A program made the translations under genes and the position numbers. Under the pieces are notes generated by a model. That model did no database searches and was not told where the DNA came from. It worked only from the letters and a program-made list of their open reading frames with translations. Below are positions 6,275-18,441 of a stretch of 31,942 nucleotides of DNA, piece by piece. The number at the start of each line of letters is the position of its first letter. Position 1 is the first letter of the stretch. The DNA lies in IMG/VR virus record IMGVR_UViG_3300006735_000120, positions 1 to 31,942 of that record; one strand, 5' to 3'. The DNA comes from a virus.

Positions 6275-7405
6275 TTATCCTAGTGCGATAGAGAAAGCAG
6301 TAATCTTTGAATCAACATACCTACGATTAACAGCATCTGTTTGATCAGTAGGCTCTGCAAGATTTGTTACCTTATTATTTAGAAGATCTAAATTAGATGA
6401 AAATGACCCAGAAGTACCTGTGAGGTTACCAGTGGATGGGTCAACACTAAATTTATTTGCTCCAACTTCAAGAGTACCAGATGTACTAATACCACCAACA
6501 GAAGATATAGATCCTTGAGTAGATATTAAACCAGTTTCATTTGATATACCATATTTTTGAACATCAGTGGAATTATAACCAGTAAGTGTTCCTCTTACAT
6601 CGGTAGATCCAGATACATCCAATCCACTAGATGCTGTAAGTTTTCCTGTAAGAACAGAAGTTCCACCAACCGTAAGATTACTACCAACATCAAGAGTTGT
6701 ACCAACATCTAAACTACCTGCTAGTGATAAGTCGGTAGTAATAATTGTATAATTAAATTTAGCGTATGCAGCAAACGCTACATCAGGATTATCAGTATAG
6801 ACGATAACACTTTGATCTCCACGTACTTTAATATCAGTTCTTTGATATGTCTGTCTTGGATTTACATCAAGGTTATACTCCATGTACTCGTCTGGAGCAA
6901 GTGTAATTTCATTTTCTGAACTTACACCAATTCTAACTCTGGATGGATTCGGACCTTGATTGGTAATGAAAATGTTTATTGTTGCTTCTTCACCACTAGG
7001 AACAGTGTATAAAACTGCTTGAGATTTAGGATTAGATAACTTTACTGAATTAACAAATCCAGATTGTCCTGTTGGATCATCAAGCATCTGACCCTGAATA
7101 ATAAAACTTGTATTATCCTTGTCAGATTCTATTACTAAATTTTGATTATTTGCATAATATATCGATGCAGTTTCATAACTCTCACCTTCTTCAATAATAT
7201 GATCATAAATGATATATGATGAAGGATCAAATTCTGTTAACGATCCAGAAGAAACACCAACTCTTATTCTAGTTGGAAATGGATTCTTGTGAGTAACAGT
7301 AAGTTTTCCCTCAACTAACTTGCCTGAATCTGCAGTATGAAGAATAGCTCTTGCATCTTTAGATGGTGTTAACGATCCTAAATAACCAAAGGTAGGATTT
7401 GTCAT
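6275..7405 (-). CDS. Virion structural protein, fibre-like (376 aa)
   Basis: Probable virion protein of the tail or fibre region. Residues about 20-215 contain two related beta-domains, each with a (TRIRVGVSS / SRVRIGVSS) strand followed by an acidic Y-rich stretch; this looks like an internal duplication. Residues about 225-330 are low-complexity Gly/Ser/Thr/Leu repeats (SLDVGTTLDVGSNLTVGG style), as in trimeric fibre shafts. The C-terminus, with LLNNKVTNLAEPTDQTDAV then RRYVD, is a motif common at the ends of phage fibre proteins. It starts a late transcription unit: a perfect TATAAATA lies about 42 nt upstream and an AGGAACAGG ribosome site precedes the ATG. The 1725-aa protein and gp13 follow directly. 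By position it could stand in for T4 wac or gp12, but this is inference. Confidence 0.7.
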   Translation of the reverse strand: MTNPTFGYLGSLTPSKDARAILHTADSGKLVEGKLTVTHKNPFPTRIRVGVSSGSLTEFDPSSYIIYDHIIEEGESYETASIYYANNQNLVIESDKDNTSFIIQGQMLDDPTGQSGFVNSVKLSNPKSQAVLYTVPSGEEATINIFITNQGPNPSRVRIGVSSENEITLAPDEYMEYNLDVNPRQTYQRTDIKVRGDQSVIVYTDNPDVAFAAYAKFNYTIITTDLSLAGSLDVGTTLDVGSNLTVGGTSVLTGKLTASSGLDVSGSTDVRGTLTGYNSTDVQKYGISNETGLISTQGSISSVGGISTSGTLEVGANKFSVDPSTGNLTGTSGSFSSNLDLLNNKVTNLAEPTDQTDAVNRRYVDSKITAFSIALG

Positions 7406-7456: not shown

Positions 7457-7465
7457 TTAGTGGTT

Positions 7466-7470
7466 GAAGG
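7466..7470 (+). promoter_or_regulatory. Ribosome binding site GAAGG deciding the epimerase start
   Basis: GAAGG lies 8 nt before the ATG at 7479. It falls inside the codons that would follow an upstream in-frame TTG (7464), which argues for the ATG. Confidence 0.6.
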
Positions 7471-7478
7471 TTTTATTT

Positions 7479-8270
7479 ATGAAAATGATTACTGGATGTA
7501 ATGGATTTATTGGATCACACTTTAAAGAAAGAGAAGAAAAGTATATTGGTGTAGAAGCATTTAATGCAGTTCATATGATTGAGAACTTCCCTAACTGGGA
7601 TGATATAGATGAGATCATTCATATGGGAGCAATCTCTTCGACTGTAGAAACAGATCTTAATAAGTTACATTTCTATAACGTAGACCTCACTCTACGTTTA
7701 TTTGAACAAGCTATCAAGTATAATATACCAGTAAAGTATGCGTCGTCAGCATCTGTGTATGGTAATGGAAGTGCTGGTTGGGGGGATCTAAATCCATTAA
7801 ACTACTATGCTATAACAAAACTTCAAATTGATTATTGGGTACAAGATAACATAGATCGTTTCAGTAATATACAAGGATTTAGATTCTTTAATGTATATGG
7901 ACCTGGAGAAGAATTGAAAGGAGATCAACGTAGTCCTATCAGTAAGTTTACTGAACAAGCAAAGATGACTGGTCAAATTAAAGTCTTTGAAGACTCTAAA
8001 AAAATGTCAAGAGATTTTGTTTGTGTTAATGACGTAGTTGATGTAGTATTAAATGCTAACAATCCTTCTGGTATCTATGATCTTGGTAGTGGAGACTCTA
8101 TAGATTTCTATACTGTTGCAGAAATCATTGCAGACAAAGAAGGTGCTGATATTAAAGAAATACCATTCCCTAAACATTTAGAAGGTAAATATCAATATAA
8201 CACCGAGTCAAATATGTCTTGGTCAGATCATAAATTTATTACGGTACATGAATATGTCAATAACTCCTGA
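7479..8270 (+). CDS. hldD: HldD-like ADP-heptose 6-epimerase (NAD-dependent SDR)
   Basis: Extended short-chain dehydrogenase/epimerase most like ADP-L-glycero-D-manno-heptose 6-epimerase, which inverts C6 of ADP-heptose in the cytoplasm. Numbered from the chosen ATG (263 aa): TGCNGFIG nucleotide-binding loop at 5-12; an HMGAISSTVETD segment (48-59), an HldD hallmark; catalytic Y110xxxK114; VYGPGEELKG at 139-148; and SRDFVCVNDVV at 177-187. It is shorter than typical HldD (about 310 aa) and trimmed at the C-terminus. The start at 7479 is preferred over an upstream TTG because GAAGG lies 8 nt before it. It is one of two plus-strand genes in the window and faces the minus-strand operon carrying HldA- and HldC-like genes, which supports the heptose assignment. 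Another nucleotide-sugar epimerase remains possible. Confidence 0.82.
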   Translation: MKMITGCNGFIGSHFKEREEKYIGVEAFNAVHMIENFPNWDDIDEIIHMGAISSTVETDLNKLHFYNVDLTLRLFEQAIKYNIPVKYASSASVYGNGSAGWGDLNPLNYYAITKLQIDYWVQDNIDRFSNIQGFRFFNVYGPGEELKGDQRSPISKFTEQAKMTGQIKVFEDSKKMSRDFVCVNDVVDVVLNANNPSGIYDLGSGDSIDFYTVAEIIADKEGADIKEIPFPKHLEGKYQYNTESNMSWSDHKFITVHEYVNNS

Positions 8271-8421
8271 AAAAGCAGCAAACTTAATATCCTTAATGGA
8301 ACTTATGGAAGATACCATAGAGCATTATTGCGATCAACATATGGTATCAGGTGAATCAGCATGGACAATGGCAGCATCACTCGCAGATGCAAAACTCCAT
8401 ACAGAATTTAATCACCCCTAA
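8254..8421 (+). CDS. Small conserved-looking hypothetical protein (55 aa)
   Basis: A 55-residue reading frame beginning MSITPEKAAN and ending TEFNHP. It overlaps the last 17 nt of the epimerase gene in another frame, and its end overlaps the cupin gene on the opposite strand by 14 nt. The protein looks genuine rather than random: it is amphipathic and helical, with an acidic MELMEDTIEHYCDQH stretch and then a WTMAASLADAKLH segment. It fills the only space between two convergent genes. No clear ribosome site is visible, so translation is probably coupled to the epimerase. Function not recognised. Confidence 0.55.
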   Translation: MSITPEKAANLISLMELMEDTIEHYCDQHMVSGESAWTMAASLADAKLHTEFNHP

Positions 8422-8749
8422 CTATTCTATAACTATCATCTTCGAAATGTTCTGTAGAGAATTCGAATAATTCTACATCTGTAATACCCTCCATCATGTG
8501 TCTTAACCCAGGAGGGATATAGAATTTATCACCTTTCTTTAATATAACTGTCTTTGCATCAGAGAAATCATCTTCGTAACCATGAGTCATCTTTAGTTCA
8601 CCACTCTGAACATAGAATGTCTCATCTTTAATCTTGTGATAATGATATGAACACTTCATACCTGCATTAAAAAATAGAAGTTTTCCACAATAGTTTGAAC
8701 TATTGCAGATCCACTTCTCATATCCCCATCCCTTTTCTACTATCTTCAT
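8408..8749 (-). CDS. Single-domain cupin, sugar-isomerase-like
   Basis: Small cupin (113 aa) of the mannose-6-phosphate isomerase/sugar epimerase type. Metal-binding motif 1 is visible as H36-x-H38 with E43 in YHYHKIKDETFYVQSGE, and motif 2 as GDKFYIPPGLRH with H84. The ending EFSTEHFEDDSYRIVRGD is typical of phosphomannose-isomerase-like cupins. It begins inside the stop of the HAD gene (ATGA overlap) and is the last gene of the sugar operon. Substrate unknown: it could isomerise a hexose or heptose phosphate, or act as an epimerase on a nucleotide sugar. The fold call is firm; the reaction is not. Confidence 0.8.
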   Translation of the reverse strand: MKIVEKGWGYEKWICNSSNYCGKLLFFNAGMKCSYHYHKIKDETFYVQSGELKMTHGYEDDFSDAKTVILKKGDKFYIPPGLRHMMEGITDVELFEFSTEHFEDDSYRIVRGD

Positions 8750-9063
8750 CCAAAGAAATCCTCGGAATTAATTCCTTTATCATCTATGAAGTAATGTGCA
8801 TGGAATTTACCCATGTGTAACTTATCAAATTTACATCCCCATGACTTAAGTTGATTATAAGTTAGATCATAAAATGCTTCATGTGCTTTCTGACCATCAC
8901 CATCAAACCTACCCATACCTCTAGCAGTATAAAAAACAATACTGTTTCCTTCATCATACAATTTATTTAACTTCTCTATCCGATCCATCATTGGTTCGGA
9001 TTTCTCGTATTGTCCTATTGGACAATTACTTATAGTACCGTCAATATCAACTACGTAAATCAT
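8746..9063 (-). CDS. Small HAD-family phosphatase (possible heptose-bisphosphate phosphatase)
   Basis: HAD-superfamily hydrolase of 105 aa from the start used here. Motif I is D6-x-D8-GT (VVDIDGT), motif II is FYTARG (about 44-49), a Lys is available in the HMGKFH segment, and motif IV is IDDK with D94/D95. The frame is open 69 nt further upstream, but that extension encodes a hydrophobic stretch belonging to the overlapping kinase gene, and HAD proteins normally begin just before DxDGT, so I use the ATG at 9063. It overlaps the kinase end by 17 nt and the cupin start by 4 nt. Context suggests the 7-phosphatase step of ADP-heptose synthesis, but it is much shorter than GmhB (about 190 aa), so this role is tentative. 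Small capsule-locus phosphatases are the closest type. Confidence 0.75.
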   Translation of the reverse strand: MIYVVDIDGTISNCPIGQYEKSEPMMDRIEKLNKLYDEGNSIVFYTARGMGRFDGDGQKAHEAFYDLTYNQLKSWGCKFDKLHMGKFHAHYFIDDKGINSEDFFG

Positions 9064-9883
9064 CTGCTTCATCAATAGAAAGAATATAAGTACCTGGATG
9101 TTGTACAGCAATTGAAGCAGCACGATTAGCAAGAGGTATTGCTAACTCTATCCTTCCAGATTCAAGATAGAAATATGTTAACGCAGCAAGAAAGGTATCA
9201 CCTGCACCTGATACATCAAAGGTAGGAACCTTAACACCAAGATATGGTATACCTTTATACTCTGCTCCTTGAGAACCTTTAGTTACAATAGCATTAGGAT
9301 ACTTTCCTTTTAATTTACTTCTCTCTAACTCATTGATTTTAATAAAACAATTCTTCTTTGGTAATTTGGTTTTCTTACTGTCTATGAATACAGGACCATC
9401 AAACCACTCAACTAATTCAAATATCTTTTCTTCCGAAAGGAATCCTTTATTGTAGTCAGATATAACCATAGCATCAAAAGGATCCCCCAAAGGAGTTGGG
9501 TGATTATGTATACCAGTAGGATAAGAATTGCCATCAGGTAACTCCCAATTAAAAGAATCAACCTCATCATTTTCATCAAGTCTCATGATCTGTTGATTAG
9601 AACGAATATCAACATATCTTGTCTTAACTGGTTTTAATTCATTACTCATAATATAAACATCACAACCAAATGACATTAGGTTGTTCCTGACGTTCTGTGC
9701 CATTCCTTGACACTCTTCTTTACGTTCGTACTCTAGAACAGGAACAGGTGCCTCTGGACTTAATCTAGAGGTCTTACCGTAGATGTATCTATCTACGCAT
9801 GTTTCACCTATAACTAATACCTTGAATTGTACGACTTGTGGAGTAATCTCCTTGTCTTTCAAAGAATTTAACTTCTTTAGCAT
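9047..9883 (-). CDS. hldA: HldA-like heptose-7-phosphate kinase (PfkB family)
   Basis: Ribokinase/PfkB-family sugar kinase matching the N-terminal half of HldE (RfaE), which phosphorylates D-glycero-D-manno-heptose 7-phosphate at C1. Visible marks are LVIGETCVDRYIYG near the N-terminus, SRLSPEAPVPV (an HldE hallmark), DYNKGFLS, and near the C-terminus the DVSGAGDTFLAAL anion-hole/catalytic-Asp motif. At about 278 aa it is somewhat shorter than the usual 315-aa domain. The start is placed at the ATG at 9883, with AGGA 7 nt upstream, rather than a GTG two codons earlier. This makes an 80-nt overlap with the nucleotidyltransferase gene upstream, so translation is probably coupled. The two HldE activities are separate genes here, transferase first. 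Confidence 0.85.
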   Translation of the reverse strand: MLKKLNSLKDKEITPQVVQFKVLVIGETCVDRYIYGKTSRLSPEAPVPVLEYERKEECQGMAQNVRNNLMSFGCDVYIMSNELKPVKTRYVDIRSNQQIMRLDENDEVDSFNWELPDGNSYPTGIHNHPTPLGDPFDAMVISDYNKGFLSEEKIFELVEWFDGPVFIDSKKTKLPKKNCFIKINELERSKLKGKYPNAIVTKGSQGAEYKGIPYLGVKVPTFDVSGAGDTFLAALTYFYLESGRIELAIPLANRAASIAVQHPGTYILSIDEADDLRS

Positions 9884-10202
9884 GTTCACGTCCTACGACA
9901 ACACCGTTTTTCCAATCGGATCCAACCACCAGTATATCAGGTTTGATACATTCTAGCAAGTTTTCTAAACCCGACCTATTATTAAATGTGTGAACTATGT
10001 CAATACATTCAATAGCTTCTAACACAAATCTCCTATCTTCCATTGTAAAGATAGGTCTATCAAACCCTTTATCTAATGCCACCTTCTCATCAGAATCTAT
10101 GGCAACTATTAAATAGTCACCAAGAGATTTTGCATATTGAAATAGTGCTATATGACCTGGGTGAAGAACATCAAAACATCCATTAACAAAAACTATCTTC
10201 AT
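9804..10202 (-). CDS. hldC: HldC-like sugar-phosphate nucleotidyltransferase
   Basis: Cytidylyltransferase-fold enzyme of 132 aa corresponding to the C-terminal domain of HldE, which adenylylates heptose 1-phosphate to ADP-heptose. The signature NGCFDVLHPGH is at residues 8-18 with the HxGH nucleotide-binding core. LVVGSDW follows at about 91-97 and the family's closing YSTSRTIQ motif at 119-126, so all catalytic elements are present. Its start overlaps the carbamoyltransferase stop as ATGA, and its 3' end overlaps the kinase gene by 80 nt. A glycerol-phosphate cytidylyltransferase role is possible from the fold alone, but the adjacent HldA-like kinase makes the ADP-heptose role much more likely. 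Confidence 0.85.
   Translation of the reverse strand: MKIVFVNGCFDVLHPGHIALFQYAKSLGDYLIVAIDSDEKVALDKGFDRPIFTMEDRRFVLEAIECIDIVHTFNNRSGLENLLECIKPDILVVGSDWKNGVVVGREHAKEVKFFERQGDYSTSRTIQGISYR
9891..9894 (-). promoter_or_regulatory. Ribosome binding site AGGA for the kinase gene
   Basis: AGGA lies 7 nt before the ATG at 9883, inside the coding sequence of the upstream nucleotidyltransferase gene. It supports the kinase start chosen here and an unusually long (80 nt) overlap. Confidence 0.5.
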
Positions 10203-11932
10203 TTAATGAACTTAATCTTCTTTGATACAACATTTGAATGGTCTATACTCTTATTAGGGACTTTAACTAACTTCCCAATCTCTGGAAGATACATGTATTC
10301 AATATCACTTTGACTTAATGTATCAAGTGCATCCTCAATAGTTTCGACCAAAGGATCTCCCCCAAGATTAAAACTAGTGTTAAAGAGAATAGGTACATCT
10401 GTAATTTTCTCAAAAGCATCAATGAGATTATAGTAATGTTTATTTTCTTCTTTCGTTACAGTTTGAATACGACATGTACCATCAACATGAATTACTGATG
10501 GTATCTTCTCTTCAATACCTTCGTGACATTTAACAGCATACATCATAAATGGTGTCTTATCTCTTCCTTTGAGATCAAACCATTCATGGACTTTCTCTTC
10601 TTTAATAGAACACGCAAATGGTCTAAACCACTCTCTACGTTTAACCTTATTAACAATATCTTTACCATCCTTAATGGTTGGATCAAATAGGATAGAACGA
10701 TTACCTAAAGCACGGGGACCACCTTCTGATTTACCTTGAAATATAGTAACAATATTACCTTCACGAATAAGTGCAGCAACATCATCATACGACACATCTT
10801 TTAATTCCAGATCTTTTATCTGATCTTCATAAGATTTTGGATCATATTGAGGACCATAATATACTGATGTTCTATTTCTTGGTTTTGTGTCACCAGATTC
10901 CTTATAGTGAATATAATATGCTCCACCAACAGATGTACCACCATCATGTGATATAGGTTCACAGTAGATGTTTAAATTAGGGAAACGCTCCCAATACTTA
11001 TAATTTGCTACACAGTTAAGACCATAACCACCAGAAATACAAATATTCTTTTCACCAGTTAAATCAACTGCTTTTTGAATAAGATCACACATACGATCAG
11101 ATGATTGTTCTTGAATCTTATATGCTAAATCTTTTTGTAAATCAGTGTACTCTCCTTCTTTGTGTTTTTTAACATCATCCTTAAAAATCTTATATCTGTC
11201 AACATTTATTTCAGCAGCATTAGGATAAGTTGGGATAATTAAATTTCGATTACCCCATTCTCCATTAAAAAATGATGGTATCTCATCATTTGGTTTACCA
11301 TATGGAGCAAGACCCATAGTCTTACCTGCTTCAATAGCAGGGAATCCACAATATTTTGTTACTGCTTCATACATTTTAGTATGACCAGGATACTCTGTTA
11401 GGAATATATTATCTTTTAATTCATGAAAACCAATAGATGCTTTAGTACCCATGTGCTTATACACAACATCAAATATATTAGGATATTTTGTATGGAAAAT
11501 AGTTTCAAATTCATATGATGTATCTGGACAATCTCCTACATCAAGAAAACTACCAGCACCATCAGCAACAACTGTTGCTGCAGTTTCAAATCCAGAATTA
11601 AAGAATGCAGCTGACGCATGCATTTCGTGATGAATTTCACAAATATGATGTAAATTAAATTTAAATTTCTTTCTTGCTAATTTTCTAACAAGTCCTGAAT
11701 AAACATCTCCTCCACACCAATCAAGTTCAGGACCATTTTCATGTGTGTGACAAACCACAAGATGATCAATTTTATCAACATAATCAAATACTTTAATTAA
11801 TCCAGCAAGAGGTGCTCCATCATATTTTAATCTTGTCAATCTTTCTTCTTCTAGATAGAAAATTATTTCTCCATCTATCATTAGTGTGGTACTGGAGTTA
11901 TGACCACGGGCACACGATACAATAATACTCAT
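10199..11932 (-). CDS. O-carbamoyltransferase (NodU/CmcH/TobZ family)
   Basis: Transfers a carbamoyl group from carbamoyl phosphate, via carbamoyl-AMP, to a hydroxyl, usually on a sugar. At 577 aa it has the usual family length with both domains. In the N-terminal Kae1-like domain are SCARGHNSS at the start, LEEERLTRLK, the metal-binding H101xxxH105 in HHEMHAS, DGAGS, GKTMGLAPYG, SGGYGLNCVAN and SHDGGTSVGGAYY. In the C-terminal YrdC-like domain is the signature GGPRALGNRSILFDP, then WFRPFA and LFNTSFN near the end. It sits between a heptosyltransferase-like gene and the HldC-like gene, so a heptose or heptose-containing glycan is the likely acceptor. In Pseudomonas aeruginosa a related enzyme (WapO) 7-O-carbamoylates LPS heptose; applying that here is inference. 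Confidence 0.93.
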   Translation of the reverse strand: MSIIVSCARGHNSSTTLMIDGEIIFYLEEERLTRLKYDGAPLAGLIKVFDYVDKIDHLVVCHTHENGPELDWCGGDVYSGLVRKLARKKFKFNLHHICEIHHEMHASAAFFNSGFETAATVVADGAGSFLDVGDCPDTSYEFETIFHTKYPNIFDVVYKHMGTKASIGFHELKDNIFLTEYPGHTKMYEAVTKYCGFPAIEAGKTMGLAPYGKPNDEIPSFFNGEWGNRNLIIPTYPNAAEINVDRYKIFKDDVKKHKEGEYTDLQKDLAYKIQEQSSDRMCDLIQKAVDLTGEKNICISGGYGLNCVANYKYWERFPNLNIYCEPISHDGGTSVGGAYYIHYKESGDTKPRNRTSVYYGPQYDPKSYEDQIKDLELKDVSYDDVAALIREGNIVTIFQGKSEGGPRALGNRSILFDPTIKDGKDIVNKVKRREWFRPFACSIKEEKVHEWFDLKGRDKTPFMMYAVKCHEGIEEKIPSVIHVDGTCRIQTVTKEENKHYYNLIDAFEKITDVPILFNTSFNLGGDPLVETIEDALDTLSQSDIEYMYLPEIGKLVKVPNKSIDHSNVVSKKIKFIK

Positions 11933-11941
11933 AATTTTAAA

Positions 11942-13108
11942 TTAAGATTCTATATTATTTTTTTCTAAAACTTTGTCAATAGATTTTTTAGATTTTGTTT
12001 TAACGGGTTTAACGTCAATAAGTTGATTAAAAGATTTTTTAGGTTTTCTGTGTGCTTTTGGAGCACCATCTTTTCTATTTGGAAAGTATTTTGGAATTAC
12101 TTCGTCATCAAAATATGTATCACTTACTATAGCTTTTTTTGCATTTCCACCTTCTCCAATTGTATCCTGAATATCTTTTAAGATCTTATTTTTTATATCT
12201 TCTAATTCTGCCTTGGTATAATCCATACAAGTATCATTTTTTCTATCTGTCAACTCACCATCCATTCCATCTATTCTAATTGGAGAATATTGTTTAGGGT
12301 TATTCTCTTTTTCTACAATATTAAAATGTTCTGGATAAGATATATTTTCTGCAAATGTACTTCCGAGAATAACACTTCCTGGTTTATCAAAAGCATATGC
12401 CATATGCTGTCCACATGAATCTACACCAACAAAATAATCTGCTGCATCTATAATACCAGCCCAGTGACGTAGATCGGCATCTACGTACATATTCTTATCG
12501 TTATCAAATTTAATTTCTGTCATAGAAATTACATTATAATATTTCCGAAGTCGTTCGGAAATATAAAAATAATCATCTGTACTTAAAGACCTGCTAGTTG
12601 GATCAACAACATGACCACCTTTGTGTTCTGTACCGTTTCTTCCAAATGGTTGAATAACTATAGTTCTTTCCTTTCCCTGTTGCTTTATTACTTCAGCAAT
12701 TATATCTTGTGCGTTTATTTCTTCGGTCTTCGATAAAATTATTTTTGGTTTTTCTAAATCTTCATGATCATCAGTACCATTAACGAGTTTATCAAAAGAC
12801 TCTGTTAATGATTTTTCTTGATTATAATATCCATATTCCTGATATGGTTCTAAATTTATCAGGTTATTATCTTTGATAATATCTTTAAATAATCCTTTAT
12901 GTGAAGGATCAAAAGATATATCTTGAAATTCTGTTCCTAGAAAAAACGGTAGTCCAGATTGAGAAACAATATAAAAACTATCTGGTCCATTTATTTTTAA
13001 ATATTTTTGAAAAGCAGGTAATGCACATATAATTCTACCAGCACCACCACTAACCATAAAAACTTTTTTTCTCGCTCTCGTGTTAGGAGAAGTTATTTCA
13101 TCTTTCAT
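11942..13108 (-). CDS. GT9-like glycosyltransferase, putative heptosyltransferase
   Basis: GT-B-type glycosyltransferase resembling family 9 (ADP-heptose:acceptor heptosyltransferases). The N-terminal loop reads VSGGAGRIICALPAF (residues about 19-33), corresponding to the G-x-GD-x-x-x-x-P acceptor-side loop of the family but with R in place of D. The second half has IVIQPFG and then GVDSCGQHMAYAFDKPG, matching the G-x-D-(S/T)-G-x-x-H sugar-nucleotide site. The last 80 residues are a Lys-rich tail (PKAHRKPKKS, KPVKTKSKKS) not usual in GT9. It is first in the sugar operon, with a perfect late promoter 20 nt upstream. The acceptor could be host LPS or phage fibre protein, since bacterial autotransporter heptosyltransferases modify proteins using ADP-heptose. 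Donor and acceptor are inferred. Confidence 0.72.
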   Translation of the reverse strand: MKDEITSPNTRARKKVFMVSGGAGRIICALPAFQKYLKINGPDSFYIVSQSGLPFFLGTEFQDISFDPSHKGLFKDIIKDNNLINLEPYQEYGYYNQEKSLTESFDKLVNGTDDHEDLEKPKIILSKTEEINAQDIIAEVIKQQGKERTIVIQPFGRNGTEHKGGHVVDPTSRSLSTDDYFYISERLRKYYNVISMTEIKFDNDKNMYVDADLRHWAGIIDAADYFVGVDSCGQHMAYAFDKPGSVILGSTFAENISYPEHFNIVEKENNPKQYSPIRIDGMDGELTDRKNDTCMDYTKAELEDIKNKILKDIQDTIGEGGNAKKAIVSDTYFDDEVIPKYFPNRKDGAPKAHRKPKKSFNQLIDVKPVKTKSKKSIDKVLEKNNIES

Positions 13109-13128: not shown

Positions 13129-13136
13129 TATTTATA
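13129..13136 (-). promoter_or_regulatory. T4-type late promoter TATAAATA for the sugar operon
   Basis: An exact TATAAATA on the minus strand ends 20 nt upstream of the GT9-like gene, inside the 86-nt non-coding gap. It implies late transcription of all six genes down to the cupin. Confidence 0.7.
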
Positions 13137-13194: not shown

Positions 13195-13557
13195 TTAATT
13201 TTTTGGATTATCGTCTTTTATTTTTTTAATTGCAGTATACCAAGCACCTGTTTTTGCATCTGCACCTAGTTTACCACCATCAATATCCCAAAAGAGTTGG
13301 TCTAGTTGGTCACCCATATCAGGATAGTTTCTAGCTTGTACATATGGTACTTGCCATGTTTTTCCTAGAATTTCACACGCTCTTTCACTTAACTTACAAA
13401 AATCATCTAAATCAATTTCAGTAGTAAGATAATCTGTCCACTCATCAGCAGTTTCTATTTCTTTACCTTTGAATCCACAAGGGGGGTATCCATGCTCGTT
13501 TAACTCACGACCACATTCTTCACTATACCACTTTAAATAAAATTCTGATTTGTTCAT
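13195..13557 (-). CDS. Hypothetical protein with YPxxGDQLDxLFxDI motif (120 aa)
   Basis: Soluble acidic 120-aa protein, no signal peptide or membrane segment. The N-terminal half (MNKSEFYLKWYSEECG start) is not recognised. The C-terminal part carries RNYPDMGDQLDQLFWDI followed by TGAWYTAIKKIKDDNP, a pattern I associate with small phage proteins encoded beside tail-fibre genes. By analogy an assembly-chaperone or fibre-accessory role is possible but unproven. It is alone in its unit: a near-match late promoter and an AAGGA ribosome site lie upstream, and a hairpin downstream. It lies directly between the cysteine-rich fibre-like gene and the sugar operon. Confidence 0.7.
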   Translation of the reverse strand: MNKSEFYLKWYSEECGRELNEHGYPPCGFKGKEIETADEWTDYLTTEIDLDDFCKLSERACEILGKTWQVPYVQARNYPDMGDQLDQLFWDIDGGKLGADAKTGAWYTAIKKIKDDNPKN

Positions 13558-13604: not shown

Positions 13605-14447
13605 TTAAACAGGCAATCTACCGTATCCTATTACGGTTACTGTTGAGTGACAATTGAATGGGTTTGATCCACTAGGAGTAGAGAAACAGAATCCTTTCAA
13701 ACATGCACCATGCATTCCACAACAAGGATAAGCATATCCTGAATTTCTAACACCAATACAGCACATAGTACTGTCGCCGTTCATTGAAGTAGTGAAGCAA
13801 TAGCGGAATCCTCTCTCGCCAGCACTACAAGGATTGTCTGATGAAATTCTATTATGCCACTGATAACCATTATATGAACATGCTGTCCTACAGTCACTGG
13901 AACATCCAATAGGCCATGCAATTGCTCCAGCACAAGTATACTGCCAAGAACCATTTGAACATTTGTTGTCTCCCATCCATCCACAAGAACAGTGTGCACA
14001 ACAGTAACCAGCTTGGTATCCTGGTTGGCATCCAGGCCATGCCTCAAAACAATACGCCATTTGAGAGCAATAGTAGTAACCCTTTCCTGTCGTACCCATT
14101 ATTTCGTAATGACTGAAAGCACCCCTCTTATCTGACGGGATAGCTACAGAACCATTCCAACAAGTGTTACATGCGTATAATATTTCAGGACCACCTGATG
14201 AACCACCAGCAGCAGTAACTGTTACTGCTCCAGTTGTTTGGTTTACTGAAATACCTGATCCAGCATTTACAGAATGAACAACACCTGTTAAGTTAGCACC
14301 CGATCCATTAGTACTTAATTTATTGGAGTTAATCGAACTTACTTCGTTATTAACGTAGGTACACAGGTCACTACAAGCAGAAGCAACTTTGGCATCTGCG
14401 TATTGTACTGTATTCCTTCCAGACGAATCGCCTTTAAATCTTGCCAT
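13605..14447 (-). CDS. Cysteine-rich fibre-like virion protein (25 Cys in 280 aa)
   Basis: The N-terminal 80 residues look like a phage fibre attachment/shaft region: helical MARFKGDSSGRNTVQYAD start, STNGSGANLTG, then SVNAGSGISVNQTTGAVTV, a beta-turn motif common in tail fibres. From residue 93 to 266 the protein becomes very Cys/Gly/Tyr/Trp-rich: 23 of its 25 Cys lie here, including CC pairs at 149-150, 229-230 and 242-243 and CxxC or CxC spacings (93/96, 153/155). The spacing fits a compact disulphide- or metal-stabilised tip domain rather than zinc fingers. The C-terminus returns to a beta-strand (STVTVIGYGRLPV). No signal peptide. It shares a unit with the 105-aa virion protein (15-nt gap). 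A receptor-binding tip is inferred; no homologue is known to me. Confidence 0.7.
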   Translation of the reverse strand: MARFKGDSSGRNTVQYADAKVASACSDLCTYVNNEVSSINSNKLSTNGSGANLTGVVHSVNAGSGISVNQTTGAVTVTAAGGSSGGPEILYACNTCWNGSVAIPSDKRGAFSHYEIMGTTGKGYYYCSQMAYCFEAWPGCQPGYQAGYCCAHCSCGWMGDNKCSNGSWQYTCAGAIAWPIGCSSDCRTACSYNGYQWHNRISSDNPCSAGERGFRYCFTTSMNGDSTMCCIGVRNSGYAYPCCGMHGACLKGFCFSTPSGSNPFNCHSTVTVIGYGRLPV

Positions 14448-14462: not shown

Positions 14463-14780
14463 TCAAGCTGCTGATTCTAAACCGTAAACACTTACAGAAG
14501 TGTCTCCAGCAGAAGCATAAACTACGACTTTTTTACCAGCGTCAAGTACAACACCAGTTCTTTCCAGAACTCCTGTTGCTGTTATAGAAGTATTGTATTC
14601 GATAAACTCCTCGGTTTGAGGAGTGGATGCTGCAGCAAGAGCAACCCTTGCGGTTACAGCACTTCCACTTCGATTTACTACACTAATGTTTACAACCGCC
14701 ACAGTTGAAGCAGGTACTGTATAAACAACAGTATTAGTAGTTGCTGCTGGGGCAGATTGCCCTAATATTCCAGATGCCAT
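14463..14780 (-). CDS. Small virion structural protein (105 aa)
   Basis: Ala/Val/Thr-rich beta-sandwich-like protein of a type I recognise as a recurring virion protein in marine T4-like phages. It starts MASGILGQSAPAATTNT, has alternating hydrophobic strands such as VAVVNISVVNRSG and KKVVVYASAGDTSVSVYG, and ends LESAA. The same strand-loop style (RTRIRVGVSS-like) occurs in the 376-aa protein, so they may share a fold. It starts a unit with the cysteine-rich gene; AGGAAAGAG lies upstream of the ATG and a CTAAATA late-type box about 24 nt upstream. Precise location in the virion unknown. Confidence 0.75.
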   Translation of the reverse strand: MASGILGQSAPAATTNTVVYTVPASTVAVVNISVVNRSGSAVTARVALAAASTPQTEEFIEYNTSITATGVLERTGVVLDAGKKVVVYASAGDTSVSVYGLESAA

Positions 14781-14841: not shown

Positions 14842-14862
14842 GGTATGAGATTAACTCATACC
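14842..14862 (-). terminator. Probable terminator hairpin at the end of the 1196-aa gene
   Basis: On the minus strand GGTATGAG, a 5-nt loop (TTAAT) and CTCATACC form a perfect 8-bp stem. It is followed by CCTTTGTC, a weak T-tract. The hairpin includes the stop codon of the 1196-aa gene and precedes the next unit's promoter. Confidence 0.55.
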
Positions 14863-17800
14863 GTAGAAGAAACCATCTTTGGCTGCTGCTGCATTTTCGT
14901 TGTCAACATAAGTCTTGGTTGCTTTCTGTGTAGGGCATTTGTTATTGCTGTTAGCAGATAGTGTAACATCAGATGAGAATTCACTGATGCTCTCACCAAT
15001 TTGAGCACCAATAGAACCCAATCTCAAACTGGATAGACCAGATAGATCGAATGAAGATGCATTCAAGGTTGTTGCACCAGTTGCCTGATTAACCTTAAAG
15101 TAACGACCAACCTTGAAGTTACCATCTTGGTCAGTAGATACATAGAAGACTCTTCCAGGGAAATCTTCAGTAACTTCATTACCAGGTGCAGGAGCTTGGT
15201 TTGGTGTACCAGGGAAGTTGGTTTGTGATTTGGATCCACAACCAATATCCAAGAAGTCATGACCTGTTAGACGTACTTGAGAATACAAGTACCTAATCTT
15301 TGTGGCCTGTCTATCAAATGAATCAGCGGCTTTTTCTTCAGCAAGTACAATGGTAGTTAAACCAGTTGTTATTGTAGCTGAAGATGTAACACGGAAGAAT
15401 TCATTATCAATCTTAAGGAAATCATCTACATCAACTCCTGCTGCTGATTCAACAAGAACTATTGTTTCTGCAGCATCGATATCTCTGGCAGTATCTGTTT
15501 GTGTTGCTGCTTTGGTTGAAATACCGAAAACAGTAATTCCATCAGAGTGAGCAGTAGCAGTTGTTCCTTCAGCACCTCTATTTACTGTGCAACTAGTTGA
15601 TGATGGGAAAGTAACAACTTCCATTATTTCATCACCAACAACCATAAATCCACCAGTATCTAGATTACTAATACTGGAAACAGTAATAGTAGTTGTTGTA
15701 GCATCAGCAACTGCAGCACCCAATGTTAGGTCTCCTTTATATGCATAACGAATAATATTAGTCAAACCATCATGTGCAGCTGCAGTTGAACTCAATGCTC
15801 CTCTAGTAACTCCAAGATTACCACGTCCATTTGCTGGACTAAACGAAGAATTAGCAACCACATATGTAAATGTATCTGCACCAGCACCACCAGCACCAGT
15901 TACAAATTCAAGAGAACCACCAACAGTAGGTGCTTCTGATAGACCACCTAATGTTATAGTAAATCCATCTTGACCTTTTTGTGCGTCAGAATTATTAAGC
16001 AAAGTACAAGAAGCACCAGATGTAGAACCTGTTACAATTTCATTTTGAGTGAAAGTACCTTTTAAAGCACGATATAGAAGAGTATTAGAACTTGGTTGAT
16101 GACTTAATATTTCTCCAATAGCACCTGATGTACCTCCAACAATTTGTTCATCTGTCTCAAACTCAAGTGGAGGAGAGGAAAGTGTAAGAGGATCATATGT
16201 TAATGCTTCTCCATCTACAAAACCATCAATTGTTGTTTCTGTCTGGTTGAATCCAGCAGAAACAATACCATATGTACCCCAAGAACTGTTACCAGCAAGA
16301 GAACGAATCTGACCACCATCAGTTGCACAGTAAGAAATATGTGCATAATAAGTGAAGCAAGAAACAATTTCTGCATAACTGTTACCAGTAACCCAGAATC
16401 CTACACCAGAACCTGTCCCTGTACTATGAATTTGTGAGTAAGAGTCAAACAACATTGTCTTGTTAGATGGTGTTGCATCACTATCATACTTATCATGAAC
16501 ACTACCATCAACAATTGCTCCAACTCCACCATCAGAGAAGCAAGAACACTGTGAAACATATGGTGATTTAAGTGTTTTTGAATTAGGATTTAGACGTAAG
16601 AATACACCTTTAATTGTAGCAGTATGTAGATCTTTAGGATCAGAAACTGATGGTACAAAACCAGCCATTCCATCCATAACAAGATCCTTCATCATTGTCT
16701 TGTTACTTAAGTAGAACAATGTAGAATGTTCGTTAAGAATAGGTGATTGAGCACTAACAGCAACTCCACTAGCACCATCATCAAATGTATCATTAGTATT
16801 CCAGTTGCCACCTTTAGTTGGCTTAAGAACTAATTTTGTACCTGCTTGTAAATCATCAAGAACCATAGCTTCTTTGTTTGCTATGCCAACATTAACAGTA
16901 ATGTTATCTGAATCTACAACAGTAACTGCTAAAGCAGTAGCATGAGCAGGGTCTGTAGCACGAGGATATGTATGCTGTGTACCATGTGAATCTCTAGCAC
17001 AAGTAAATGTTAATGCGTTAGCAGCAATAGTAACTGTGTTAGCAGCATTTAAACCATGTCCAGCACTAGTTATTGTTAATACACCAGTATCAGGATCATA
17101 GGCAGCAGTATCAACATTCTTTGTACCAGCACCAGTTACAGATAATGCATTAGCAGCAGCAGATACAAATGTGTGAGCTCCCTGTTGACCATTAGTAACA
17201 GTTTCTCCACGAACACGTGAAGAAGCAACAGGAGCTGAAGCAAGTGTAACCTCTTGTGTAGAACTATTATTACCAGCATCAGGCTTAATAACTGTAGTTC
17301 TCATGTTGTCTCCAACAATCGAAACAAATTCAGGAACAGTCATCGGCAAGGTTTCTTCGTAAGTACCTGCCTTCACATAAATTGTTGCTGGACCTGTAAC
17401 AGTATCAGTAGCATGACGAATTGTTTTAAATGCTTGTGTTATGTTTTCACCAGTATTGGTATCACTACCGTCTGGTGTAACATAGAAAACCTTTTGTGTA
17501 ACTGAATTGTTCTTCCATGCAGGGTATCCACCTTCTACAGTAAGAACTTGACCATTAGTTCCTACAGGTAGTCTTGTAGAACCAGCACCACTAACATAAA
17601 GAATGTCACCTGGATCTGTTAGAACGTTTGATTGAGCACCTTGTGTTAGTGGATTCCAGTAATCTCCATTAACATCATTTTCAGGTTCCTCGTTTGTATT
17701 TGCAGCAACACTGATATATGAATGACTTAATCGTGAAATACAATCGCCAGGATTGTAAGCAGTCGCAGCATCCCAATTACCTCTCCACGTGAAACCTCCA

Positions 17801-18441
17801 ACTATGAAGTCCCAGTTGTTATTAACTGAAGTAGGTTGTGAATTAGTATTTGTAGATTTAGCAGCGTAAGAATTACCACCAAGTAATACAACGTCACCTG
17901 GTTTATAGGTAGTAGTATTATCCCAGTTACCAACAACTTTAAATCCAGTTGTTAGGATTTCCCAGTTAACATCAATACTAGTATTAGGTGCTATTCCAAT
18001 ATTAGTTGTTTTAGAAACGTATGTATAACCACCAAATACTACAATATCACCTACTTGGTACTCTGTACCAACTACCCACGAATCTTCAAACTTAAGACCA
18101 GAAACATAGGAAACAAAATTTCCACTAGCAAATGTAGCAGAAGAAGTGTGACCAGTAGTACATCTGTACTGATCGTTACCGTACTTAACGATATCGTTAA
18201 GTTTGTAGAAAATACTTACTCCTGACCAATCACCTTTTAATGCTATTCCTTCTGTGTGTAACTGCCATTTATTAAGATCAGTAATATACCAATCAGTTTC
18301 TAGCGATACGGAGGTGTGGTTGGTTGTACAAACATAAGTATTGGCACCGAACTTTACAATATCGTCGATGACATATGCAGAGGCACCAGTCCAGTCACCC
18401 CTCCAATTAAACTTAAGTCTGCCGAGTCTAAAATCTGCCAT
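14851..18441 (-). CDS. Tail fibre/spike-like protein: five carbohydrate-binding-like repeats plus beta-helix (1196 aa)
   Basis: The N-terminal 265 residues contain five repeats of about 50 aa of the form W-x-G-x-W-(5-8)-Y-x-x-x-D-x-V-x-x-x-G-x-x-Y (about 12-58, 65-113, 118-160, 167-210, 218-262), resembling the small aromatic chitin-binding-like modules of phage and chitinase proteins. A linker ends about residue 320, then VFYVTPDGSD, IYVKAGTYEE and VSIVGDN mark a pectate-lyase-type beta-helix start, with inserted beta-domains about 395-540. The C-terminal half has IxxGDEI/IDNEFF-type repeats with TVNRGAEGT, and the end reads SNNKCPTQKATKTYVDNE, a fibre-type terminus. No catalytic residues can be assigned. 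It follows the 129-aa gene by 13 nt and is ended by a hairpin. A host-glycan-binding fibre or spike is the likely role. Confidence 0.78.
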   Translation of the reverse strand: MADFRLGRLKFNWRGDWTGASAYVIDDIVKFGANTYVCTTNHTSVSLETDWYITDLNKWQLHTEGIALKGDWSGVSIFYKLNDIVKYGNDQYRCTTGHTSSATFASGNFVSYVSGLKFEDSWVVGTEYQVGDIVVFGGYTYVSKTTNIGIAPNTSIDVNWEILTTGFKVVGNWDNTTTYKPGDVVLLGGNSYAAKSTNTNSQPTSVNNNWDFIVGGFTWRGNWDAATAYNPGDCISRLSHSYISVAANTNEEPENDVNGDYWNPLTQGAQSNVLTDPGDILYVSGAGSTRLPVGTNGQVLTVEGGYPAWKNNSVTQKVFYVTPDGSDTNTGENITQAFKTIRHATDTVTGPATIYVKAGTYEETLPMTVPEFVSIVGDNMRTTVIKPDAGNNSSTQEVTLASAPVASSRVRGETVTNGQQGAHTFVSAAANALSVTGAGTKNVDTAAYDPDTGVLTITSAGHGLNAANTVTIAANALTFTCARDSHGTQHTYPRATDPAHATALAVTVVDSDNITVNVGIANKEAMVLDDLQAGTKLVLKPTKGGNWNTNDTFDDGASGVAVSAQSPILNEHSTLFYLSNKTMMKDLVMDGMAGFVPSVSDPKDLHTATIKGVFLRLNPNSKTLKSPYVSQCSCFSDGGVGAIVDGSVHDKYDSDATPSNKTMLFDSYSQIHSTGTGSGVGFWVTGNSYAEIVSCFTYYAHISYCATDGGQIRSLAGNSSWGTYGIVSAGFNQTETTIDGFVDGEALTYDPLTLSSPPLEFETDEQIVGGTSGAIGEILSHQPSSNTLLYRALKGTFTQNEIVTGSTSGASCTLLNNSDAQKGQDGFTITLGGLSEAPTVGGSLEFVTGAGGAGADTFTYVVANSSFSPANGRGNLGVTRGALSSTAAAHDGLTNIIRYAYKGDLTLGAAVADATTTTITVSSISNLDTGGFMVVGDEIMEVVTFPSSTSCTVNRGAEGTTATAHSDGITVFGISTKAATQTDTARDIDAAETIVLVESAAGVDVDDFLKIDNEFFRVTSSATITTGLTTIVLAEEKAADSFDRQATKIRYLYSQVRLTGHDFLDIGCGSKSQTNFPGTPNQAPAPGNEVTEDFPGRVFYVSTDQDGNFKVGRYFKVNQATGATTLNASSFDLSGLSSLRLGSIGAQIGESISEFSSDVTLSANSNNKCPTQKATKTYVDNENAAAAKDGFFYGMS
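17640..18420 (-). repeat. Five tandem aromatic WxGxW...YxxGDxV repeats
   Basis: Encodes the N-terminal 265 residues of the 1196-aa protein. Units carry FNWRGDWTGASAYVIDDIV, LKGDWSGVSIFYKLNDIV, DSWVVGTEYQVGDIV, VGNWDNTTTYKPGDVV and WRGNWDAATAYNPGD. The regular Trp/Tyr and GD positions indicate a duplicated carbohydrate-binding-like module. Confidence 0.7.

Follow-up and report, generated by a model that had tools for sequence, protein, structure and literature searches.

The 31,942-nucleotide stretch analyzed here (the window) is a virus record from IMG/VR (IMGVR_UViG_3300006735_000120), itself a genome fragment, and belongs to an ocean phage, a T4-like cyanophage (Kyanoviridae) predicted to infect cyanobacteria. 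Between its tail genes lies a seven-gene cassette that, in a reading to which we give about even credence, forms a self-sufficient pathway to ADP-L-glycero-D-manno-heptose together with a module for transferring the sugar to the phage's own tail. In the proposed route, host sedoheptulose-7-phosphate would be converted to D-glycero-D-manno-heptose-7-phosphate by a cupin rather than by GmhA, HldA would form the 1,7-bisphosphate, a small HAD phosphatase would remove the 7-phosphate, HldC would add AMP, and HldD would epimerize C6. A GT9-like enzyme would then move the heptose onto cysteine-rich tail proteins whose genes lie immediately upstream, and carbamoylation of the sugar would fall to the adjacent carbamoyltransferase, the order of these last steps being presumptive. 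The proposal is built on enzyme families, motifs, folds, synteny, and gene associations.

An earlier sequence-only reading had described an HldD-like epimerase facing a six-gene operon of heptose and carbamoyltransferase genes in a tail locus; gene positions, profiles, and motifs agree with this, and all seven genes were confirmed in the order and on the strands described. The HldD-like ADP-glycero-manno-heptose 6-epimerase (268 aa; plus strand, 7464..8270, probable ATG at 7479) matched TIGR02197 at 5.8e-54 and PDB entry 1eq2 at 2e-31, and its Ser, Tyr-x3-Lys, and second catalytic Lys (S95, Y115, K119, and K152) align with those of E. coli HldD. The other six genes lie on the minus strand. The HldA-like heptose-7-phosphate kinase (9047..9889; TIGR02198 1.4e-39; PDB 4e84 9e-18) has a shortened PfkB fold with two internal deletions in the alignment to E. 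coli, and retains the SPEAPVP motif and the GAGD anion hole. The HldC-like heptose-1-phosphate adenylyltransferase (9804..10202; TIGR02199 6.7e-35) retains, in the alignment, the nucleotidyltransferase motifs NGxFDxLHxGH and GxD. The NodU/TobZ-type O-carbamoyltransferase (10199..11932) holds both the N- and C-terminal domains of its family (PF02543 and PF16861, Carbam_trans_C 1.5e-59) and matched PDB 7xb6 (7.9e-50) and TobZ 3ven (1.2e-46). The cupin (8408..8749; Cupin_2 1.4e-9) is predicted to be a metal-dependent sedoheptulose-7-phosphate isomerase replacing GmhA, on the strength of its predicted fold, gene fusions, and exclusion with GmhA. The pathway had been called near-complete. Sequence, synteny, and motifs uphold the route, and the qualifier is corrected: the pathway is probably complete, with the cupin filling the GmhA step.

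Profile searches with each enzyme gave a two-sided result. The heptose models were matched with motifs kept, but the scores lay under the NCBI curated cut-offs of these equivalog models: 183 bits against 274.6 for HldD (TIGR02197), 136 against 345 for HldA (TIGR02198), and 120 against 181.5 for HldC (TIGR02199). We regard these enzymes as divergent, shortened versions. The predicted heptose-1,7-bisphosphate phosphatase (8746..9072, in a frame open to 9132, probable ATG near 9072) is a small HAD protein with unbroken DxDGT/DDK motifs; by profile search it is not a member of the GmhB family and is of the EcbF/BcbF type (TIGR01689 6.9e-10). Two viral loci (L030 and L034) have otherwise equivalent cassettes in which a GmhB homologue takes the place of the small HAD, a swap that supports functional equivalence of the two, as judged from gene content. 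The public cyanophage label "phosphoheptose isomerase" for this gene was rejected, since profiles and motifs identify a HAD protein.

The same gene order was found in S-CAM3, P-SSM2, S-CAM1, S-SSM7, and Sf-FS3. Synteny of the cassette extends over several genera of cyanophages, mostly at protein identities of 40–70%, and so its arrangement is not due to chance. The nearest relative of the window was MH319766, a contig of the Kyanoviridae obtained from a single cell of Pacific origin, and a near-identical cassette copy is present on a 67 kb IMG/VR contig. A protein-only scan with the GT9-like gene returned one near-identical contig, and an alignment query was needed to recover more relatives. 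The cassette as such is not new, and cyanophage lipopolysaccharide (LPS) and heptose genes are already published. In three cyanophages, Sullivan et al. (2010; PMC3037559) described LPS genes that occur together, among them T4-GC 304, 305, 307, and 308; in the records of P-SSM2 and S-SSM7 these correspond to the nucleotidyltransferase, kinase, cupin, and epimerase. SynMITS9220M01 was also published with heptose genes (PMC7378029). This precedent was overlooked by the sequence-only reading, as were the cupin's likely isomerase role, a lost GT9 aspartate, and the cysteine-rich partners.

The sugar would probably be new to the host. From the phage relatives we infer that the window's host is a picocyanobacterium, and a strong HldC (E below 1e-40) was found in just 4 of 151 genomes of the Prochlorococcus family; the next match, in genome G022, sits on a phage contig. 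A GmhA-like protein (E below 1e-20) occurred in about 29 of the 151 by our own count. Heptose is reviewed as absent from marine Synechococcus LPS (PMC4515613). The earlier proviso of a sugar foreign to the cell is thereby supported. Cyanophage-like heptose cassettes were also seen binned into archaeal, planctomycete, and rhodobacterial metagenome-assembled genomes (L183–L187 and L202), which probably reflects contamination of public genomes with phage DNA.

The cupin is most likely the absent sedoheptulose-7-phosphate isomerase. The top Foldseek matches of its AlphaFold2 model (predicted local distance difference test, pLDDT, 96.5) were the D-lyxose isomerases 7nzp and 7nzo, with archaeal phosphomannose isomerases also high; lyxose, mannose, and D-glycero-D-manno-heptose have a common C2/C3 configuration. 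By VIA Z-score, CapF, KdgF, and others ranked level with or above the isomerases, and therefore the fold alone cannot decide the function. The metal ligands HxH, E, and H (H36, H38, E43, and H84) are invariant. The window cupin scored under the gathering score of Pfam Lyx_isomer (PF07385), and an archaeal member (L240) scored above it (25.4 vs. 20.8). Profiles do not support the public labels "nucleotidyltransferase" and "cysteine dioxygenase" for this gene.

Gene fusions and neighborhoods point in the same direction. Two Woesearchaeota genomes encode, respectively, a GmhB-cupin-HldC fusion of 475 aa after an HldA-like gene (L238, 7437–8864) and an HldA-cupin fusion ahead of a GmhB gene (L240, 7059–8369). 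A canonical GT9 gene that keeps the GD motif is close to each fusion, and a GmhA match was found in neither genome; taken together, these genes have the appearance of an archaeal heptose pathway. Further operons read cupin-HldA-HldC (L236) and HldC-cupin-HldA (L197). The cupin is linked either to HldA/HldC (ADP route) or to HddA/HddC (GDP route); the steps that both routes share are the isomerase and the phosphatase. In Bellamy (L011) and SynMITS9220M01 (L019) it sits between HddA-like and HddC-like genes, and these phages probably use GDP-heptose instead of the ADP route.

The distribution of GmhA was also investigated. No match to SIS-domain GmhA was found in 14 of 15 cupin-bearing phage records, nor in any of 80 viral cupin loci within the fetched flanks. 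Among 149 Planctomycetota genomes, 126 carried HldC and 12 a strong cupin; all 12 have HldC, and GmhA was present in 0/12 HldC genomes with the cupin versus 107/114 without it (Fisher p 2.6e-12, uncorrected for phylogeny). A second phylum offered one strong cupin only, in a genome without GmhA, and its medium-scoring cupins (50–91 bits), mostly found alongside GmhA, probably have other functions. A Prochlorococcus locus (L192) considered as a host cupin was rejected because its UvsX-like and tail genes mark it as a contig of phage origin within a single-cell genome.

The GT9-like glycosyltransferase (11942..13108, minus strand) was recognized by its fold. Its sequence scored 21 bits against the heptosyltransferase III model TIGR02201 (E 1.5e-4; cut-off 170), no Pfam family was found at E 1e-3, and a PDB sequence search with a GT9 profile gave no meaningful match. 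Alignment with hhalign assigned it to GT9 at 96.5%. AlphaFold2 produced a confident GT-B core, with pLDDT mostly above 90 up to residue 320, which grouped with the GT9 structure 3tov, TibC (4rap/4rb4), WaaF (1psw), and WaaC at Z 17.8–21.8; plant NDH subunits also fell in this range, and the next folds were at about 11. The predicted structure is in line with the proposed heptosyltransferase likeness. Donor-site residues D230 and H235 (D261 and H266 in WaaC) were invariant in 36 sequences, within the motif DSxGQH. Arg25 was aligned by hhalign to WaaC D13, and the homologues in the distant phages K479 (Vibrio) and HJ05 (Aeromonas) have GGLGR at the same site. In 34 long transferase loci, the ADP-heptose pathway lay nearby in 25 and the carbamoyltransferase in 31.

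The transferase has one to three tail-type proteins of mostly 7–13% Cys encoded upstream of it on its own strand. In all 75 transferase loci that had 4 kb of sequence upstream, a Cys-rich open reading frame (ORF) was present there, its Cys content over a 150-residue stretch being 7.3% or more (median 14%); of 46 loci lacking the transferase, 2 had such an ORF at a 6% threshold. Whole genomes followed the same pattern: P-SSM2, S-CAM1, and S-SSM7 (3/3) have large Cys-rich proteins adjoining the transferase, and by a 6% whole-protein test none was detected in S-SM2, Bellamy, S-T4, P-TIM68, or SynMITS9220M01 (0/5), which lack it. A Cys-enriched structural gene likewise adjoins the transferase homologues of HJ05 and K479, and no Hld gene was present among the annotated genes around them; the gammaproteobacterial hosts of these phages make their own ADP-heptose. 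Most of the Cys-rich proteins form one glycine-rich family, some members of which match Pfam Gly_rich_2, and the remainder are RCC1 propellers or unrelated. Cys was their best-conserved residue at identities above 45%, and Cys spacing revealed no metal- or disulfide-type pattern beyond slight clustering. In one viral locus (L030, 4312–7875), an ORF of 1188 residues with 131 Cys adjoins the GT9-like gene; its PHROG match is weak, and it had no Pfam match. The virion target favored by the sequence-only reading gains from these data, as the transferase stands beside Cys-rich tail proteins in every locus with enough flank and its fold matches the protein heptosyltransferase TibC as well as the LPS heptosyltransferases.

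In the window, the proposed acceptor is a Cys-rich tail-type protein (13605..14447, minus strand; 25 Cys in 280 aa), put forward for its Cys content and its position beside the transferase. A 120-aa ORF whose C-terminus matches PHROG families of unknown function (13195..13557, minus strand) separates the two. A T4-type late promoter motif, TATAAATA (13129..13136, minus strand), precedes the start codon of the GT9-like gene by about 20 bp. Eleven of the 12 ATAAATA copies in the window are on the minus strand, and by motif counting the total of late-promoter motifs in the window was not above chance. The cassette is flanked by tail-fiber and virion genes: a small tail-fiber-like protein of 105 aa (14463..14780, minus strand; phrog_11338 and phrog_693) and a tail fiber protein (14851..18441, minus strand; phrog_9851) on one side, and another tail fiber protein (6275..7405, minus strand; phrog_11338) on the other. 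The phrog_11338 domain is thus common to proteins on either side, an arrangement that looks as if the cassette had been inserted beside a duplicated tail module.

Several observations weigh against a virion-directed heptose pathway. The heptose enzymes fall below their curated cut-offs, as given above. The catalytic Asp of GT9 enzymes (D13 in WaaC and D110 in TibC) is Arg25, in a GGxGR motif, in all inspected relatives of the phage protein, and Asp110 is essential in TibC (PMC4358343). This replacement casts doubt on ordinary O-heptosylation by the known mechanism, and the protein might be a binder instead of a transferase. Gene adjacency does not prove an acceptor, and loci with the heptose pathway that lack the GT9-like gene lie in LPS-like clusters. 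For the cupin, GmhA co-occurs in 4 of 22 cupin-bearing cellular genomes and in a single cupin-bearing phage record, SynMITS9220M01, where it forms a separate HddA-GmhA pair. The Planctomycetota genomes do not count as phylogenetically independent samples, and a neighborhood check found no heptose genes linked to the cupin in the 12 genomes, so that their support is a phyletic pattern only.

These points leave room for other explanations. The products could act on the host surface, with the infecting phage decorating the LPS or capsule of its host with carbamoylated heptose, one conceivable purpose being to block superinfection. Cyanophage clusters have been published as LPS genes (PMC3037559, PMC7378029), and in S-SM2, S-T4, and P-TIM68, related cupin and Hld genes accompany other glycosyltransferases in LPS-like clusters. 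The GT9-like gene itself, however, lies in a tail operon near a late-promoter motif and is tied to Cys-rich tail proteins rather than to LPS clusters, and the lone homologues in Vibrio and Aeromonas phages adjoin tail-type genes; we consider this explanation rather unlikely. Less probable still is a non-catalytic role for the GT9-like protein, as a GT-B chaperone or sugar-nucleotide binder needed to fold or assemble disulfide-forming Cys-rich tail proteins. The invariant Arg in place of the catalytic Asp would fit such a role, as would the strong conservation of Cys, expected of disulfide cores, but the invariant DSxGQH donor-site motif, the frequent pathway and carbamoyltransferase neighbors, and the lack of a disulfide-like Cys spacing beyond slight clustering speak against it. 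It seems similarly improbable that the cupin is a later epimerase or a regulator, with host GmhA supplying heptose-7-phosphate. Cupins are functionally diverse, the reductase/epimerase CapF ranks as high as the isomerases or higher by Z, and some host-family genomes do have a GmhA-like protein. Most do not, however, and the fusions to GmhB, HldC, and HldA, the exclusion with GmhA in HldC-bearing genomes, and the presence of the cupin in both ADP and GDP routes argue for the isomerase step.

The loss of the Asp together with the Cys-rich neighbors makes an S-linkage worth testing. In the boldest reading, which we offer tentatively and hold to be possible rather than probable, the GT9-like enzymes would be cysteine S-heptosyltransferases that coat tail-tip proteins (up to 13% Cys) with S-linked, possibly carbamoylated heptose, and, separately, the cupin would represent a new, widespread class of phosphoheptose isomerase. 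A thiol requires no general base, so the Asp in that role could have been lost, and the invariant Arg would stabilize the thiolate. If the tail is indeed the target, this would explain the heptose genes of many cyanophages whose hosts mostly lack them, as the decoration would be of the virion and not of the cell, and would point to an unrecognized protein glycosylation (heptose, perhaps S-linked, on Cys-rich adhesins) in abundant ocean viruses. The cupin is a candidate isomerase for phages, bacteria, and archaea that apparently have HldC but lack GmhA. The system is present in sequenced, cultured phages (S-CAM1, S-CAM3, P-SSM2, and S-SSM7). Within the cassettes of Sf-FS3 (L014) and S-SSM7 (L013), a second carbamoyltransferase-like ORF was observed, as were prolyl-4-hydroxylase-type dioxygenases in Sf-FS3 and a tryptophan halogenase in S-SSM7, which are possible further tail modification enzymes.

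In the literature covered, which did not extend to subscription papers, no precedent was found for a cupin phosphoheptose isomerase or for S-linked heptose, phage S-glycosylation, or Cys-rich cyanophage tails, and both the cupin isomerase and the pairing of transferase and Cys-rich proteins appear new within it. The published cyanophage clusters (P-SSM2, S-SSM7, and SynMITS9220M01; PMC3037559, PMC7378029) contain the same genes, and P-SSM2, S-SSM7, S-CAM1, S-CAM3, and Sf-FS3 have essentially the same cassette; these accounts treat them as LPS genes of unknown use, without an isomerase role for the cupin or a link to Cys-rich tails. According to the summary in PMC11461863, Tang et al. (Science) described functional NDP-heptose biosynthetic enzymes in viruses, and their survey reported the phosphatase as absent from viruses. 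The likeness to the present system, as far as that summary goes, is that viruses encode functional heptose enzymes, whereas the cassettes here add a HAD candidate, a GmhB homologue in some contigs, and the cupin as isomerase candidate; the HAD candidate would therefore fill a second gap.

The cupin resembles the D-lyxose/D-mannose isomerases and archaeal phosphomannose isomerase of the cupin type in its fold, HxH...E...H metal site, YCxK and KxExF motifs, and the related aldose-ketose stereochemistry, but belongs to a distinct family, marked by the signature EFSTxHFxxDxxR and by fusion or linkage to heptose genes. The carbamoyltransferase shares both conserved domains with NodU, TobZ, GdmN, and WapO; the WapO-like role suggested earlier may apply to the phage enzyme. 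With the LPS heptosyltransferases WaaC and WaaF, the GT9-like protein has in common the fold and the donor-site D...H motif, and it differs in having Arg for Asp13, in its place in a tail operon, and in lacking an LPS core context. Compared with the autotransporter heptosyltransferases TibC and AAH, it shares a GT-B/GT9-like fold, the ADP-heptose context, and adhesin-type likely acceptors, while differing in the Arg for Asp110, in acceptors that are Cys-rich rather than Ser-rich repeats, and in a sequence identity of about 11%.

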